Source: Chromobacterium haemolyticum DSM 19808 (GTDB taxonomy: Bacteria; Pseudomonadota; Gammaproteobacteria; Burkholderiales; Chromobacteriaceae). From it: a DNA stretch of 64,000 nt. Numbering within the stretch: the first letter of the stretch is position 1; every line of letters begins with the position of its first letter. The stretch spans positions 248,001-312,000 of the forward strand of contig NZ_JONK01000001.1 in assembly GCF_000711885.1 (NCBI RefSeq), written 5' to 3'. This document shows positions 50,594 through 54,168 of this stretch, in pieces. The translations under genes were made by a program, and so were the position numbers. The notes under the pieces were generated by a model. The model was not told the origin of the DNA and did not search any database. It worked only from the letters and a program-made list of their open reading frames with translations.

Positions 50594-52060
50594 TTAATCA
50601 GCCGGCAAGCCCAATAAGCGACGCAGATTGTTGATCACCTGCTGACGTTTTGCCTGCTCTTGCTGGTAGTCGCGGTCGGCGGCGGCGATGTCCGCCGAGC
50701 AGTGTGGGCAACAGGTTTCGTCGGGGTGGATGTATTGCTGGCATTGCCGGCACAGCGCCAGCTTGGCCGGCGGCTTGCCTTCGCGCGGCGCGGTTTTGCC
50801 CTTGTTTTTCCAAGTCAGCGCGATGACTTGGCCGCTGCGGCTGATTCGGCTGACTTCCTGGCCGCTGGCGATGTCTTCGGTGATCAAGTCGAATCGTCCA
50901 ACGGCGAAGGAGGCGGGCGCGGCGTCCTGTAGTTTGACGATGCGCTCGCGCAGGCCCTGTTTTTCCAGCTCCAGCGCGCGGTAATGACAGTAGGGGTTGT
51001 TGCCGGGCTTGCCCAGCAGGGAGTGGGAGGTCCAGGTGCACCCGCCACGGCAGATGTCGTTGTAGTAGCAGCCGCGGCAATAGCCCCATAGATCCTCCAC
51101 CGAGCGCAGGCGGCCAAAGTGGATGCCCTCGCTGTGGTGCCAGATGTCGTCCAGGCTCATATCGCGAACATTGCCGCCGGAAAAGCCGACGGTGGCCAGC
51201 GATGGACAGCCCTTGACGGTGCCGTCCGCCTCCAGCGCCAGCACGGTCTGGCCGGCGGCGCAGCCGCTCCAGTGAACCCGCTCGTCGCCAAATCCGCGCC
51301 ACAGGCGCTCGTACGGGCCGTAGTATCCGATATTGTTGCCCACATTCATCAGCAGGCCGCGCTCCACGCCTTCGCGGTAAAGCCGCGCCAGCAAGGGCAT
51401 CAGTTCCAGCAGTTGGTAGGGTTGCAGCAGCAGCTCGTCATTGTCCACCGCATTGCCCATCGCCACCGTCAACTGGATCTGCCAGTGGGTGGCGCCCAGT
51501 TCGATGATCTGGTCCATCAGCGCCGGCAAGTCCGGCATGGTGGCCGCGCCGATCTGGGTATTGACGCTGACGGCGAGGCCGGCCGCCTTGGCGCGGCGCA
51601 AGGCGTCCACCGCCTTGTCGAAAGCGCCCGGCACATTGCGCACCTTGTCGTGCAAGGGCGCAAGGCCGTCCAGCGATACGCCGACGCCGTTGAGGCCGGC
51701 GTCTATCGCCTGTTGCAGGCGAGCCGGGTTCAGATTTCGGCCGCCGGTCTGGATCGCGCAATACATCCCGTGGCCGCGGATGGCGCGGATCAATTGGGTC
51801 CAGTCCTTGCGCAGATAGGCTTCGCCGCCGATCAGGGTGATCTCGCGCGTGCCCAGCGCCGCCAGCGCGTTTATGACCTCCAGGCATTCGGCGGTGGACA
51901 GCTCGTTGGGGCGGCGGTGGCCGGCGCGGGAGCCGCAGTGCAGGCATTTCAGGTCGCAGGCCAGCGTGATTTCCCAAACCACGTGCACCGGGACGTAACG
52001 CTTGAAGTCTTCGTCGTCCAGATAACGGGCGGGACGGACGGTGGGGCGGTCATCGAGCAT
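50594..52060 (-). CDS. Radical SAM/SPASM maturase associated with DUF1842/DUF1843 proteins
   Basis: A 488-residue radical SAM enzyme. The [4Fe-4S] site is CX3CX2C at C35, C39 and C42 (TLACDLKCLHCGSRAG), and GGEAYLRKD follows. The SPASM domain has C267, C285, C328, C331, C337, C341 and C358 for auxiliary clusters. The last ~55 residues add a four-cysteine zinc-ribbon-like module (C437, C440, C450/451, C454). It resembles the family I recall as the GDL-motif peptide-associated maturase. Upstream on the same strand are three proteins sharing a GDL/GNL-containing tail, its likely substrates. A repeat element separates them. AAGGA precedes the ATG. Confidence 0.88.
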   Translation of the reverse strand: MLDDRPTVRPARYLDDEDFKRYVPVHVVWEITLACDLKCLHCGSRAGHRRPNELSTAECLEVINALAALGTREITLIGGEAYLRKDWTQLIRAIRGHGMYCAIQTGGRNLNPARLQQAIDAGLNGVGVSLDGLAPLHDKVRNVPGAFDKAVDALRRAKAAGLAVSVNTQIGAATMPDLPALMDQIIELGATHWQIQLTVAMGNAVDNDELLLQPYQLLELMPLLARLYREGVERGLLMNVGNNIGYYGPYERLWRGFGDERVHWSGCAAGQTVLALEADGTVKGCPSLATVGFSGGNVRDMSLDDIWHHSEGIHFGRLRSVEDLWGYCRGCYYNDICRGGCTWTSHSLLGKPGNNPYCHYRALELEKQGLRERIVKLQDAAPASFAVGRFDLITEDIASGQEVSRISRSGQVIALTWKNKGKTAPREGKPPAKLALCRQCQQYIHPDETCCPHCSADIAAADRDYQQEQAKRQQVINNLRRLLGLPAD

Positions 52061-52119
52061 GAGCGGGTCCTTGGAAGGGGGCGAGGAGCGTCCGCTGGAC
52101 GCCCCTGGACTTTGAGCTG

Positions 52120-52270
52120 CTTAGAACCTGTTTACGATCTGCTACGCGTGGTGAAACGTGGTTCGGCGAGTGCAACTTCAAAATGCTCATGTACCGTGTG
52201 TACACGCCGCTTGCTCAGCCGTTTTCGCCTTGCCTCACCTTGGCTCGCGAGATCGTAAACACGTTCTTAG
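52120..52270. repeat. Dispersed type-A repeat element, copy J
   Basis: A complete 151-bp copy from CTTAGAACCTGTTTACGATC to AGATCGTAAACACG then TTCTTAG. It has the standard core (AAAATGCTCATGTACCGTG, TTGCTCAGCCG). It lies between the radical SAM gene and the DUF1842/1843 gene, whose TAA stop (52267-52269) is inside the right CTTAG. Confidence 0.88.
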
Positions 52271-52283
52271 CGTGCGGCGCCGT

Positions 52284-52886
52284 TCAATGCCGGCCTTCTA
52301 GGCGGGCGATTTCCGCATGCAGCTGCTTCAGCGCGGCTTCGATATTGTCGTGCTGCTTCAACTGTTCTTCCGCCTGAATGGCCAGCGACTTCATCTGCGC
52401 CAGATTGTCGCTGGAGCGGGATTGCTGAAGCGCAGCGGCGTAGAGCGGAATGGGGTGGGGGTAGGGCTTGCTGCCGGAGCGCGGCTCCGGATGCACGGCC
52501 GGGGCCTCGGTCACGATGGCGTGCGCCACGGTGTGCCAAGCGTTCTGGTAGAAGAAGCGGTAGCTGGCGTGGCCGTCCTTCCAGTTCTGGTCGAGAATGC
52601 CTTGCAAGTGGAAGGTTTCGGCGATCTGACTGTTGGGAGAGCTGGGGCTGCCGTCCAGCGACAGCACGATGTGGTGCTCGGCGGACGGGTCCAGTTTGGC
52701 TTGGCTGTAATGGCCCCAGACATTGGCCTGGAATTGCAGCGGCGGGCTGACGCTTTGGAAAATGCTGGCGTGGCCGCTGACCTTTTTCTGCGGCGTGTTG
52801 ACCAGCAGGTCCAGGGTCAGGACCGGTGCGCCCAGCACCGGGGCGGAAACGATGTAACGGGTATGGAACAATCCTGTTGCTGACAT
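52284..52886 (-). CDS. DUF1842/DUF1843-like protein, degenerate-tail paralogue
   Basis: A 200-residue soluble protein; the CDS is open to the start and its stop lies at 52284-52286. Residues ~1-130 are a beta-rich DUF1842-like domain (LTLDLLVNTPQKKVSGHASI). Residues ~148-198 match the DUF1843 tail of its two paralogues: PLYAAALQQSRSSDNLAQMKS, then EAALKQLHAEIARLEGR. The GDL triplet of the neighbour is DNL here. AAGGAG lies eight bases before the ATG. It is possibly a substrate, or a former substrate, of the radical SAM enzyme. Confidence 0.8.
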   Translation of the reverse strand: MSATGLFHTRYIVSAPVLGAPVLTLDLLVNTPQKKVSGHASIFQSVSPPLQFQANVWGHYSQAKLDPSAEHHIVLSLDGSPSSPNSQIAETFHLQGILDQNWKDGHASYRFFYQNAWHTVAHAIVTEAPAVHPEPRSGSKPYPHPIPLYAAALQQSRSSDNLAQMKSLAIQAEEQLKQHDNIEAALKQLHAEIARLEGRH

Positions 52887-52925
52887 GGAGCACTCCTTGG
52901 CGGATGGGGGAGAGACGGCGCTAGC

Positions 52926-53546
52926 CTATTGGCGTTCCAGCTTGGCGATTTCCGATTTCAGCGCGTCCAGTTCCTTGCGCAGTTGCGGCTGAGCGTCCAA
53001 TTGCTGGCGGGCGTAGGAGGCCAGCGTTTTCATGTGGGCCAGGTCGCCGCTGGCGATGGCGCTTTGAATCGGCACGCCGTACAGCGCATTGATGGGCGGG
53101 TTGGGAAGAATCACCGGTCCGGGTCCCAGCGGCAACGGGAAATAGCGCGATTTCAGTTCCGGGTTGAGTTTGGCCGGCGCGTTTTCCACTTCCACCCACG
53201 CGGAACCGTTCAGATAGCTGTAATTGGCCACGCCCTGTTTCCAGTCCTGGCTCAGAACCAAGTGCAGTTTGAAGTTGACCGTGTTGCCGCTGTGGCCTTG
53301 GGCGGTGATCAGAATGCGGCCTTCGCTGGGCGGCATCACCGTCAGGTAGGTGTAGTCGCCGTGAACGTGGGAGTGAACGTCCAGCGGCGGATTGGTGGCC
53401 TGGGTGATGTGGGCGTCGCCGGTCACGGCGCTGCGCGGCGGCGCGACCAGCAGGTTCAGCGTAAGCCGTTGCGCGCCTTCCATGCCGGTGCCGATGAGGT
53501 AGCTGACGGGAAACAAGCCGATATCGGTTTGTGCGGTGTCTGACAT
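52926..53546 (-). CDS. DUF1842/DUF1843-like protein with GDL motif
   Basis: A 206-residue soluble protein with the same plan as its downstream paralogue. The beta-rich DUF1842-like part (LTLNLLVAPPRSAVTGDAHI, residues 28-47) is followed by a proline-rich joint (PLPLGPGPVILPNPP). The DUF1843 tail is LYGVPIQSAIASGDLAHMKT, then ELDALKSEIAKLERQ. GDL is intact. GGAGG lies seven bases before the ATG, the strongest ribosome binding site in the cluster. No signal peptide is present. It is a probable substrate or partner of the nearby radical SAM/SPASM enzyme. Confidence 0.83.
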   Translation of the reverse strand: MSDTAQTDIGLFPVSYLIGTGMEGAQRLTLNLLVAPPRSAVTGDAHITQATNPPLDVHSHVHGDYTYLTVMPPSEGRILITAQGHSGNTVNFKLHLVLSQDWKQGVANYSYLNGSAWVEVENAPAKLNPELKSRYFPLPLGPGPVILPNPPINALYGVPIQSAIASGDLAHMKTLASYARQQLDAQPQLRKELDALKSEIAKLERQ

Positions 53547-53598
53547 AAAACCTCCGGAGAGTTAGGTGATGTTCCTGCCGGGCGAGCCGAGCGGGCTC

Positions 53599-53622
53599 GC
53601 TGGATCGCGAGAGTGTTCTTAG
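53599..53622. repeat. Right-end remnant of the dispersed element, copy K
   Basis: GGATCGCGAGAGTG then TTCTTAG is a type-A right end without a matching left end. Its CTTAG supplies the TAA stop of the 62-residue DUF1843 gene (53619-53621). Confidence 0.6.
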
Positions 53623-53807
53623 CGTCGTTCCAGGCGGGAGATTTCCTGCTTCAACTGATCGACGGCGGCGTGCAGATCGCCGTATTGGCGCAAGTGTTGT
53701 TCGCCTTGTTCCAGCAGGGTTTTCATCTGCGCCAGATTGCCTTCCGCAATCGCTTGGTGGATGGCGACGCCGTAAGGCAAGACTTGATGCGTGGGAAGAT
53801 GGCTCAT
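53619..53807 (-). CDS. Small stand-alone DUF1843 protein (62 residues)
   Basis: A 62-residue protein consisting of the tail domain only: VLPYGVAIHQAIAEGNLAQM, then KTLLEQGEQHLRQYGDLHAA and VDQLKQEISRLERR. It aligns without gaps to the C-termini of the two 200-residue paralogues downstream, with GNL at the first motif position and a further YGDL. Its size suits a modified-peptide precursor. The ribosome binding site is modest, with AGGA about 14 bases upstream. Start 53807 is chosen over a 20-residue extension lying in repeat sequence. Confidence 0.8.
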   Translation of the reverse strand: MSHLPTHQVLPYGVAIHQAIAEGNLAQMKTLLEQGEQHLRQYGDLHAAVDQLKQEISRLERR

Positions 53808-53821
53808 GAGTCGACCTGTTC

Positions 53822-53973
53822 CTTGAGAACCTGTTTGCGATCTGCTGCGCGTTGTGAGACACGACACGGTGAGTGCCGCTTCGAAATGTTCATGTGCCGT
53901 ATGTGCATTCCGCTTTCTCAGCCGTTTTCGCCATGTCTCGCTTTTGCTAGCGGGATCGTAAACACGTTCTTAG
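53822..53973. repeat. Dispersed type-A repeat element, copy L
   Basis: Complete, ~152 bp, from CTTGAGAACCTGTTTGCGATC to GGATCGTAAACACG then TTCTTAG. The core includes TTCGAAATGTTCATGTGCC and CGCTTTCTCAGCCG. It lies immediately upstream of the small DUF1843 gene, so it may contain or interrupt its promoter. Confidence 0.88.
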
Positions 53974-54168
53974 CGCTGATTAACGAGATGACGGGCGGAT
54001 GAGAGCGGGCCGCCCGCAAAGGGCTGCCGGACAAAGCCCGGCAGTGTTTATCGGTGTAGCAGTTGGGGGCGGCGGCAAACTGAACTTAAGGTCAGTTTTT
54101 ATGAAGAACAAATACTTAAGTGGAAGTACCGAGCCGCGCGAACGCAGCCCGGAGCAAGGAAGAGAGGC
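53974..54168. other. Gene-poor stretch with a palindrome
   Basis: About 195 bases between copy L and the AstE-like gene. It contains AAACTGA-A-CTTAAG-G-TCAGTTTTT (54077-54100), an operator- or terminator-like palindrome, and a GC hairpin CTGCCGG...CCCGGCAG near 54024-54045 that may end the AstE-like transcript. A 23-codon ORF at 54101-54172 has no supporting signal. Confidence 0.4.

Follow-up and report, generated by a model that had tools for sequence, protein, structure and literature searches.

The splicease reaction is the excision of tyramine giving a ketoamide, and splicease products have been reported as protease inhibitors. The splicease PlpX, which is placed in IPR026482, works with PlpY. 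PMC10533398 describes MYG and LYG as sites of PlpXY action (the tags used include GGPIRPLYGLPI and GAVAAGYGVVFPG), while most tag insertions in FtsZ were rejected, the listed LYG tags included, so the motif alone is insufficient. A second described system is that of Chromobacterium subtsugae, annotated as U6115_13245-13260 and reported as quorum-sensing regulated (PMC12114271). DUF1842/DUF1843 genes rank with the most induced of those listed, under quorum sensing in that source and in stationary phase in PMC12322963. We found no assigned function for DUF1842/DUF1843 proteins in the literature examined. The system itself is not new, having been catalogued already; what we add is a specific mechanism proposal, which Scott 2022 and Richter 2024 may already report.

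The window analyzed here is a stretch of 64,000 nt from Chromobacterium haemolyticum DSM 19808 (contig NZ_JONK01000001.1, positions 248,001 to 312,000). Its minus strand encodes a 488-aa radical SAM/SPASM enzyme (50594..52060) with three smaller proteins upstream, an organization reported in an earlier note on this DNA and confirmed here by ORF and Pfam analysis. In reading order these are a 62-aa stand-alone DUF1843 protein with the motif LPYGVAI (53619..53807; DUF1843 at 53625..53777, 1.3e-20), a 206-aa DUF1842-DUF1843 protein with the motif ALYGVPI (52926..53546; DUF1842 at 53196..53519, 8.4e-29; DUF1843 tail at 52932..53087, 6.3e-20) and a 200-aa DUF1842-DUF1843 protein with the motif PLYAA (52284..52886; DUF1842 at 52536..52877, 6.2e-34; DUF1843 tail at 52293..52448, 2.2e-18). 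The Pfam profiles thus bear out the domain assignments that had been suggested. Two of the tails cover model positions 1-52 and the other 2-52. The shared ending KxEIxxLE, claimed for all three, is absent from the 200-aa copy, which ends in LHAEIARLE and has PLYAAAL at the key site, compared with LYGVPI in the 206-aa protein. The three cassette proteins are the sole DUF1843 matches genome-wide. A third DUF1842 is found elsewhere in the genome, without a DUF1843 tail and without an enzyme beside it, which favors the editing cassette proposed below. As had been noticed before, no protease or exporter is adjacent: none was found among the seven neighboring window proteins scanned. No leader family (Nif11-like or nitrile-hydratase-like) exceeds the Pfam cut-off in the three window substrates. 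A classical secreted RiPP was dropped as an explanation, given the leader-less substrates and those seven neighbors, as was a PqqD-like chaperone role for the 62-aa protein, which matches TIGR04353 only weakly (E 0.037).

The enzyme belongs to the GDL-associated SPASM family that the earlier note had named for a search, scoring 998.7 bits against TIGR03913 (GDL motif peptide-associated maturase; curated cut-off 591.75). From the name of this model we take it that a trio of small GDL-motif peptides is expected beside the enzyme, and three DUF1843 proteins are indeed located directly upstream. Pfam assigns a Radical_SAM domain (4.4e-24) and a SPASM domain (3.5e-8, residues 267-332). Both features by which SPASM radical SAM enzymes are recognized are present, specifically the CX3CX2C cluster motif (C35, C39, C42; 51935..51958, minus strand), which is invariant in 34 aligned members and also occurs in TIGR04103, and seven SPASM cysteines (C267, C285, C328, C331, C337, C341, C358; 50987..51262, minus strand) common to GDL and TIGR04103 enzymes. 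Of the C-terminal zinc ribbon described earlier, the four cysteines of a CxxC...CxxC module (C437, C440, C451, C454; 50699..50752, minus strand) occur without exception in the 34 aligned members, but zinc binding is putative, as even the best Pfam zinc-ribbon model (E 0.11) stays short of its cut-off.

The nearest other family is TIGR04103, of which the enzyme is not a member (435.5 bits, under the cut-off of 725), followed by a family at 154.6 bits. In reverse, a TIGR04103 enzyme scores 853.1 against its own family, 414.5 against TIGR03913 and 154.1 against the next. The GDL and TIGR04103 enzymes share 47% identity over 384 aligned positions, and 117 residues of the window enzyme are common (at least 95%) to 80 GDL and 14 TIGR04103 rows, 33 of them being absent from four outgroup enzymes. 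A tree of 45 rows, including 24 of the 80 fetched loci, splits both families from three outgroup enzymes (support 100/99), with an inner order that is unsure because the outgroup branches are long. The distant enzyme L161, with its very long branch, is placed within this group, and the divergent L136, L158 and L159 fall outside both families. The best solved-structure matches by sequence are 6C8V (1.1e-19) and 6EFN (2.4e-19). TIGR04103 itself has the anatomy of a splicease system. A survey of 244 cyanobacterial genomes gave 13 loci over its cut-off, and all 13 have a small ORF close by that appears to be a Nif11-like precursor and contains XYG cores, mostly PLYGV or MYGV, as well as a PlpY-sized small ORF matching the 71-aa gene downstream of the Nostoc enzyme. 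The latter enzyme adjoins a Nif11 precursor (by Pfam) ending in ALYGLPPELF. Tyrosines in 20 TIGR04103 cores comprise 31 XYG, 10 with other following residues and one YYA, with no [L/M/P]YA. The best reading of these sequence comparisons is that TIGR03913 enzymes probably fall in the same clade as splicease-type enzymes of the PlpX kind.

The distribution of enzyme and tail is that of a single system. Tails without the enzyme, which the earlier note had set as the case against such a link, were searched for and not found: at family cut-offs, 45 of 715 sampled genomes have both, 670 neither and none has one alone, the number of initial candidates scored per genome being capped (for the tail at 16 or 21 and for the enzyme at 3 or 5, for instance), which means that a copy may have been missed. 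Both occur in the same 11 of 19 genomes of the genus sample (neither in the other eight), the same three of 300 in the order sample and, at family cut-offs, the same 32 of 398 in the Pseudomonas sample. Four enzyme-less Pseudomonas genomes have a weak PF08898 match within a 742-aa frame, which is below cut-off and was left out of the tail count. Among 72,556 plasmid records, the 62-aa protein matches four, and these are also the four best enzyme records; the 206-aa protein as query matched no plasmid record, not even these four. Tails are also present at 80 of 80 fetched enzyme loci, which were chosen by the enzyme and include many close pseudomonad relatives. Loci were seen in Pseudomonadota, Acidobacteriota, Myxococcota and Cyanobacteriota, and a Bacteroidota copy scores below the model cut-off. 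Beyond the cassette, all-against-all BLAST found no gene common to more than three of 28 representative loci, a crude comparison that omitted frames shorter than 60 aa and whose overlap filter allowed real genes to be displaced by longer antisense ones, leaving the enzyme itself recovered in only 17 of the 28. Immediately downstream of the enzyme, no group of small frames covered more than nine of the 80 loci.

The tail had been proposed as the recognition element or the modified site, and this can be narrowed to one residue, a Tyr at the start of the tail that is conserved in 233 of 233 DUF1843 domains from the 80 loci, typically as P-[L/P]-Y-[G/A]-V. It is preceded by Leu (154), Pro (73) or Met (6) and followed by Ala (122), Gly (110) or Met (1). 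In the window its minus-strand codons are at 53772..53774 (Y12 of the 62-aa protein, in PYG), 53079..53081 (Y156 of the 206-aa protein, in ALYG) and 52440..52442 (Y149 of the 200-aa protein, in PLYA). Two of the three window substrates thus contain Xaa-Tyr-Gly (LPYGVAI and NALYGVPI) and the third LYA. The 62-aa protein, which the earlier note took for a minimal substrate, may instead be just one of three motif carriers. At least three DUF1843 domains are encoded at 69 of the 80 loci. The motif outlives the domain. We found no separate PYG gene in the loci of C. sinusclupearum, C. amazonense and C. alticapitis, where a DUF1842 protein carries PPYGTALQQ N-terminally. In relatives from Undibacterium and Lysobacter, Y-[G/A] is retained in partial repeats with 29-38 matched residues. 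Both cases favor the editing reading given below; against it, an invariant Tyr could be structural.

We consider it probable that this is a leader-less, protein-directed cassette for splicease-type editing of the DUF1843-tail Tyr. The earlier note had named no chemistry; the one proposed here is suggested by the sister family TIGR04103. Since the closest relatives look like Tyr-excising enzymes, the three tagged proteins may be edited in this same rare way. The TIGR03913 enzyme would act on the invariant Tyr where each DUF1843 domain begins, within the motif [L/P/M]-Y-[G/A], cutting most of it out of the protein backbone and rejoining the ends. Docking would involve the conserved stretch behind the motif (IQxAxxxGDLxxMK) instead of a Nif11-type leader, and the C-terminal CxxC/CxxC module might take over the part of the absent PlpY. 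The carriers would remain intact within the cell, with a stationary-phase or quorum-regulated inhibitor as one possible role. Y-G sites would be likelier to be edited than Y-A sites; given the Y-A majority and the single Y-M, the GDL enzyme must either accept Ala as well or leave about half of its sites unspliced. A broader version is possible, though we hold it only tentatively: folded intracellular proteins, as opposed to secreted peptides, might be given backbone alpha-keto-beta-amino acids at several different sites (mostly one PYG plus two LY[G/A]) by an enzyme that works without PlpY, uses a helix of the substrate itself for docking and edits Tyr-Ala as well as Tyr-Gly. The sites are proposed to act together because loci retain the set despite gene fusion or motif relocation.

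Radical SAM enzymes that are 47% identical can differ in reaction, which counts against a splicease. The same Tyr might undergo another reaction, for example oxidative decarboxylation, cross-linking to a neighbor or side-chain cleavage, an unlikely alternative that arises because the Y-A sites (122/233) misfit the Xaa-Tyr-Gly rule of spliceases. It gains from the search for PlpY, which also counts against a splicease: a profile built from the PlpY-sized ORFs of the 13 TIGR04103 loci, run on the frames of the 80 GDL loci, gave no PlpY-like gene (best E 0.028, on the opposite strand). The mycofactocin radical SAM maturase, as described in PMC8326336, also treats Tyr differently. Against another reaction stand the XYG cores of the family that is nearest by a wide margin, and the similar motif context, with Pro before and Val after at many sites of both families.

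Rather less probable is that DUF1843 serves as a docking tag only, with the modified residue in DUF1842 or another protein and the Tyr on the binding face. Further positions of the domain are strongly conserved (e.g., Ala at column 10 and Gly at column 14), and the solved homologue, made in E. coli without the enzyme, has a folded DUF1842, a flexible linker and an unresolved tail in the account of PMC10994174; the folding also argues against the splicease reading. The tail frames found at loci such as L104 and L126, however, are 56-85 aa long, too short for DUF1842, and the partial repeats lose the C-terminal half while keeping Y-[G/A], so that the site there would be in the motif region or in some other protein. 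It is very improbable that the DUF1843 paralogs self-assemble as a shell or filament with the enzyme as side player, an idea proposed from the repeated-paralog pattern (Beeby 2009, cited in PMC10994174). The 69 loci with three or more domains would fit it, but the homologue is likely monomeric, the conditions tested having shown no higher oligomer either in crystals or in solution (PMC10994174), and the co-occurrence with a radical enzyme would be left unexplained. Splicease-type editing, which we prefer, reduces the question to a loss of 135.08 Da, for which PMC10533398 gives 135.0757, at a named Tyr. If true, many bacteria of soil and plants would have a reactive backbone ketone in folded proteins, and a leader-free, PlpY-free enzyme would be handy for labeling proteins site-specifically.

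Upstream of the cluster, a lux-box-like palindrome at 54080..54095 reads CTGACCTTAAGTTCAG in the cluster direction, with one mismatch to CTGNCCNNNNGGNCAG, which we take to be the lux-box consensus. Its place and partial conservation weakly suggest a possible site for a quorum-sensing regulator: of nine Chromobacterium sequences, four have it with one mismatch, three have a site with two mismatches and two lack such a site, while the scan overall is at chance (53 found vs 57.6 expected) and a one-mismatch site occurs in 58 of 1268 overlapping 600-nt window stretches (one strand). Between the palindrome and the first gene is a MITE-like repeat of about 150 bp (53826..53975), 82% identical to the copy at 52123-52272 and missing, as compared by eye, at the corresponding place in locus L044. 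The second repeat, of similar size (52119..52272), separates the enzyme gene from the 200-aa gene and has 22-nt ends that are 91% complementary; the repeat has at least 41 matches in the genome. Candidate sigma-70 promoters (0 found vs 0.9 expected) and terminators (4 vs 4.0) were dropped.

Compared with known systems, PqqE, SkfB and other SPASM maturases likewise combine radical SAM and SPASM domains, but their resemblance to the window enzyme is far weaker. PDB 8T0B, annotated as a DUF1842 domain-containing protein and presumably the published homologue structure (Q63NT7/BPSS0212), matches the 206-aa protein (E 5.8e-45), including the tail AMYGVAIQSA. The C. subtsugae system, as presented in PMC12114271, has the same full-length enzyme family and the same DUF1842/DUF1843 trio; we saw no essential difference from it, the window cluster having two MITE-like repeats, one within and one upstream. 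PlpXY and the spliceotides are linked to the window by TIGR04103 as closest family and by the shared motif [L/M]-Y-G, which Pro often precedes and Val often follows. In contrast to the Nif11-like peptides processed by PlpXY, the window substrates are leader-less DUF1843 proteins, and GDL systems have about half Y-A sites, no PlpY-like gene found, sites distributed over several genes and an enzyme with an extra C-terminal CxxC/CxxC module.

The cassette lies on the minus strand of a 5.03 Mb genome (63 contigs) and encodes, in transcription order, a 62-aa DUF1843 protein (53619-53807), two DUF1842-DUF1843 proteins of 206 aa (52926-53546) and 200 aa (52284-52886), and a radical SAM/SPASM enzyme of 488 aa (50594-52060). 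The arrangement of such an enzyme beside three tail proteins, described in the earlier note, is real and represents a standard copy of a catalogued system: in a profile search, its enzyme reaches 998.7 bits for TIGR03913, the GDL maturase family (cut-off 591.75). The nearest named locus is that of Chromobacterium haemolyticum H4137 (98% enzyme identity). The cassette is preceded on the same strand by genes for an AstE/AspA-type protein and an SBP_bac_5 binding protein, and followed by those for a LacI-type regulator, an AAA_33 protein and a GntP permease, none of these neighbors having an evident link to it.

The enzyme and the DUF1843 tail belong together. Among the matches listed, TIGR03913 and DUF1843 occur in the same 11 of 19 genomes of the genus (neither in the other 8), the same three of 300 genomes of the order and, at family cut-offs, the same 32 of 398 Pseudomonas genomes, each of the latter with three DUF1843 matches. 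In the 715 pooled genomes (two counted twice were taken out; the genomes are not independent of one another), the check on co-occurrence proposed in the earlier note thus finds both in 45 and neither in 670; among the matches listed, no genome has just one of the two. Scanning 84,980 species genomes yielded 122 enzyme relatives; the best 80 were retained, and the stretch fetched for each of them contains DUF1843 (233 domains in total). Since these loci were chosen by the enzyme, they test one direction only; the opposite one (tails without enzyme) was tested by the genus, order and Pseudomonas samples. In a collection of 72,556 plasmid records, the four that match the 62-aa protein are the same four topping the enzyme's list.

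Two copies of a MITE-like repeat of about 150 bp (82% identical, with 22-nt inverted ends) are found here, one between the 200-aa gene, the last tag gene, and the enzyme gene (52119-52272) and the other separating the first gene from a putative regulatory site (53826-53975). The repeat has at least 41 matches in the genome (40 of 440 first-look candidates scored) and might uncouple the expression of enzyme and substrates. The putative regulatory site is a lux-box-like palindrome (54080-54095) with one mismatch to what we take to be the Chromobacterium lux-box consensus. In a related strain (L044) the upstream repeat site is empty, and the distance from the lux-box-like site to the first ATG is 142 nt, versus 288 nt in the window. 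Similar sites precede the cluster in several relatives, not all, and the palindrome is in line with the quorum-sensing control reported in C. subtsugae.

According to published reports, the C. subtsugae cluster is induced by quorum sensing (log2 fold change about 5 for the three DUF genes; PMC12114271), the corresponding B. thailandensis genes are up 7.5 to 8.0 in stationary phase, read as log2 fold change (PMC12322963), and Chromobacterium DUF1842 genes are responsive to iron or acyl-homoserine lactones (PMC4216352, PMC10197875). Induction is likewise reported for C. subtsugae, B. thailandensis and C. violaceum genes of the DUF1842 kind that lie outside such a cluster. The window's genome itself has a third DUF1842 protein (L006, G000:C14:114543-114911), without tail or adjoining enzyme. 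A B. pseudomallei homologue made in E. coli is reported to be likely monomeric; its DUF1842 domain forms a beta-barrel, its linker is loop-like and its tail was not resolved, and proteolysis took place in the crystal trays (PMC10994174).

Across the 80 loci, column 3 of DUF1843 is tyrosine in all 233 domains. The residue after it is Ala (122), Gly (110) or Met (1), the residue before it Leu (154), Pro (73) or Met (6), and Pro pairs with Gly (PYG 73, PYA 0). This tyrosine is also one of six invariant columns in an alignment of 44 full DUF1842-DUF1843 proteins, and the single further tail-like stretch that turned up in a looser search (E <1, same strand) likewise has LYA. The most frequent starts are PLYAV, PLYAA and PPYGV, and in the window substrates a conserved GDL-containing stretch directly follows the motif. 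Exactly three domains occur in 62 of the 80 loci and a PYG domain in 71. In three of the nine loci without one (L048, L049, L053), a DUF1842-DUF1843 protein has PPYGTALQQ at its N-terminus and no separate PYG gene was found, which looks like motif transfer between genes. L048 and L053 also have a second DUF1842 protein whose decayed tail still keeps LYA. In Undibacterium, Lysobacter and related organisms, seven loci (L116-L121, L123) hold three motifs within one frame; the partial repeats there, with 31-38 residues matched, retain Y-[G/A]. Selection therefore seems to constrain the motif, and in many cases the whole set, more tightly than gene layout. The motif tyrosine is the likely site of any modification.

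The closest family to the window enzyme is TIGR04103 (nif11-class peptide radical SAM maturase 3), presumably the same as IPR026482. The window enzyme scores 998.7 bits for TIGR03913, 435.5 for TIGR04103 and 154.6 for the next family; a Nostoc TIGR04103 enzyme, 47% identical to it in alignment, scores 853.1 for TIGR04103, 414.5 for TIGR03913 and 154.1 for the next. GDL and TIGR04103 enzymes have 33 near-invariant residues in common that are absent from all four outgroup enzymes. A search of 244 cyanobacterial genomes found TIGR04103-like matches at E 1e-100 in 18, of which 13 exceed the cut-off. At each of these 13 loci, a nearby small ORF contains XYG cores and reads as a precursor of the Nif11-like type (Nif11 by Pfam for the Nostoc precursor, by reading for the others), and an ORF matches the 71-aa, PlpY-sized gene of Nostoc. 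Cores were read out for 11 of the 13 loci plus Nostoc, 20 in all. Their tyrosines stand in XYG in 31 cases and in other contexts in 11, none of them in [L/M/P]YA; in the 31, the residue before YG is Leu in 19, Met in 7, Ile in 3, Lys in 1 and Ala in 1, Pro occupies -2 in 18 sites and Val comes after Gly in 21. Judged by this locus anatomy, TIGR04103 looks like a family of the splicease kind. PlpX, which excises tyramine from Xaa-Tyr-Gly together with PlpY, is assigned to IPR026482 (PMC11002830).

At L157 (G367), a divergent TIGR04103-like enzyme lies beside a frame of 281 aa that repeats APMYGMP seven times and may be a multi-site substrate. Of the other four below-cut-off, non-GDL loci, one belongs to the same genome and has LYGA motifs near an enzyme frame containing a stop; no MYGMP-like repeat occurs in the short stretches of the three further loci. 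The enzyme on a Tropicibacter oceani plasmid (L127), with CxxC pairs at its N-terminus, scores 431 bits for TIGR03913 and 428 for TIGR04103, below both cut-offs; its gene adjoins trypsin-like and M23 peptidase genes, with no evident substrate. A Bacteroidota copy on an Aureibacter tunicatorum plasmid (L126; enzyme 535 bits, below the TIGR03913 cut-off) encodes three 56-aa DUF1843 proteins (LYA, MYA, PYG), the enzyme and then a class I SAM methyltransferase. In Oscillatoria and Symploca loci an ORF related to the latter comes next after the enzyme, so methylation may be a further step in some cassettes.

By homology and motif context, we lean towards a full splicease-type reading of the cassette, with some reserve. 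Against it stand the Y-A sites, the majority in the GDL loci and absent as [L/M/P]YA from the sister cores read, and the lack of a PlpY-like gene in the 80 GDL loci (best match E 0.028, on the other strand). The accessible parts of the literature retrieved do not name TIGR03913 or tie DUF1843 to splicing; GDL-type proteins are quite possibly already among the published splicease substrates, which limits any claim of novelty. The putative precursors of TIGR04103 loci read as Nif11-like, whereas the window substrates have no leader. The published PlpXY sites are MYG and LYG, and the tags tried include GGPIRPLYGLPI and GAVAAGYGVVFPG, most tags being rejected once inserted in FtsZ (PMC10533398). 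The window's NALYGVPI and LPYGVAI resemble these sites and tags, and PLYAAAL is similar too, Ala excepted.
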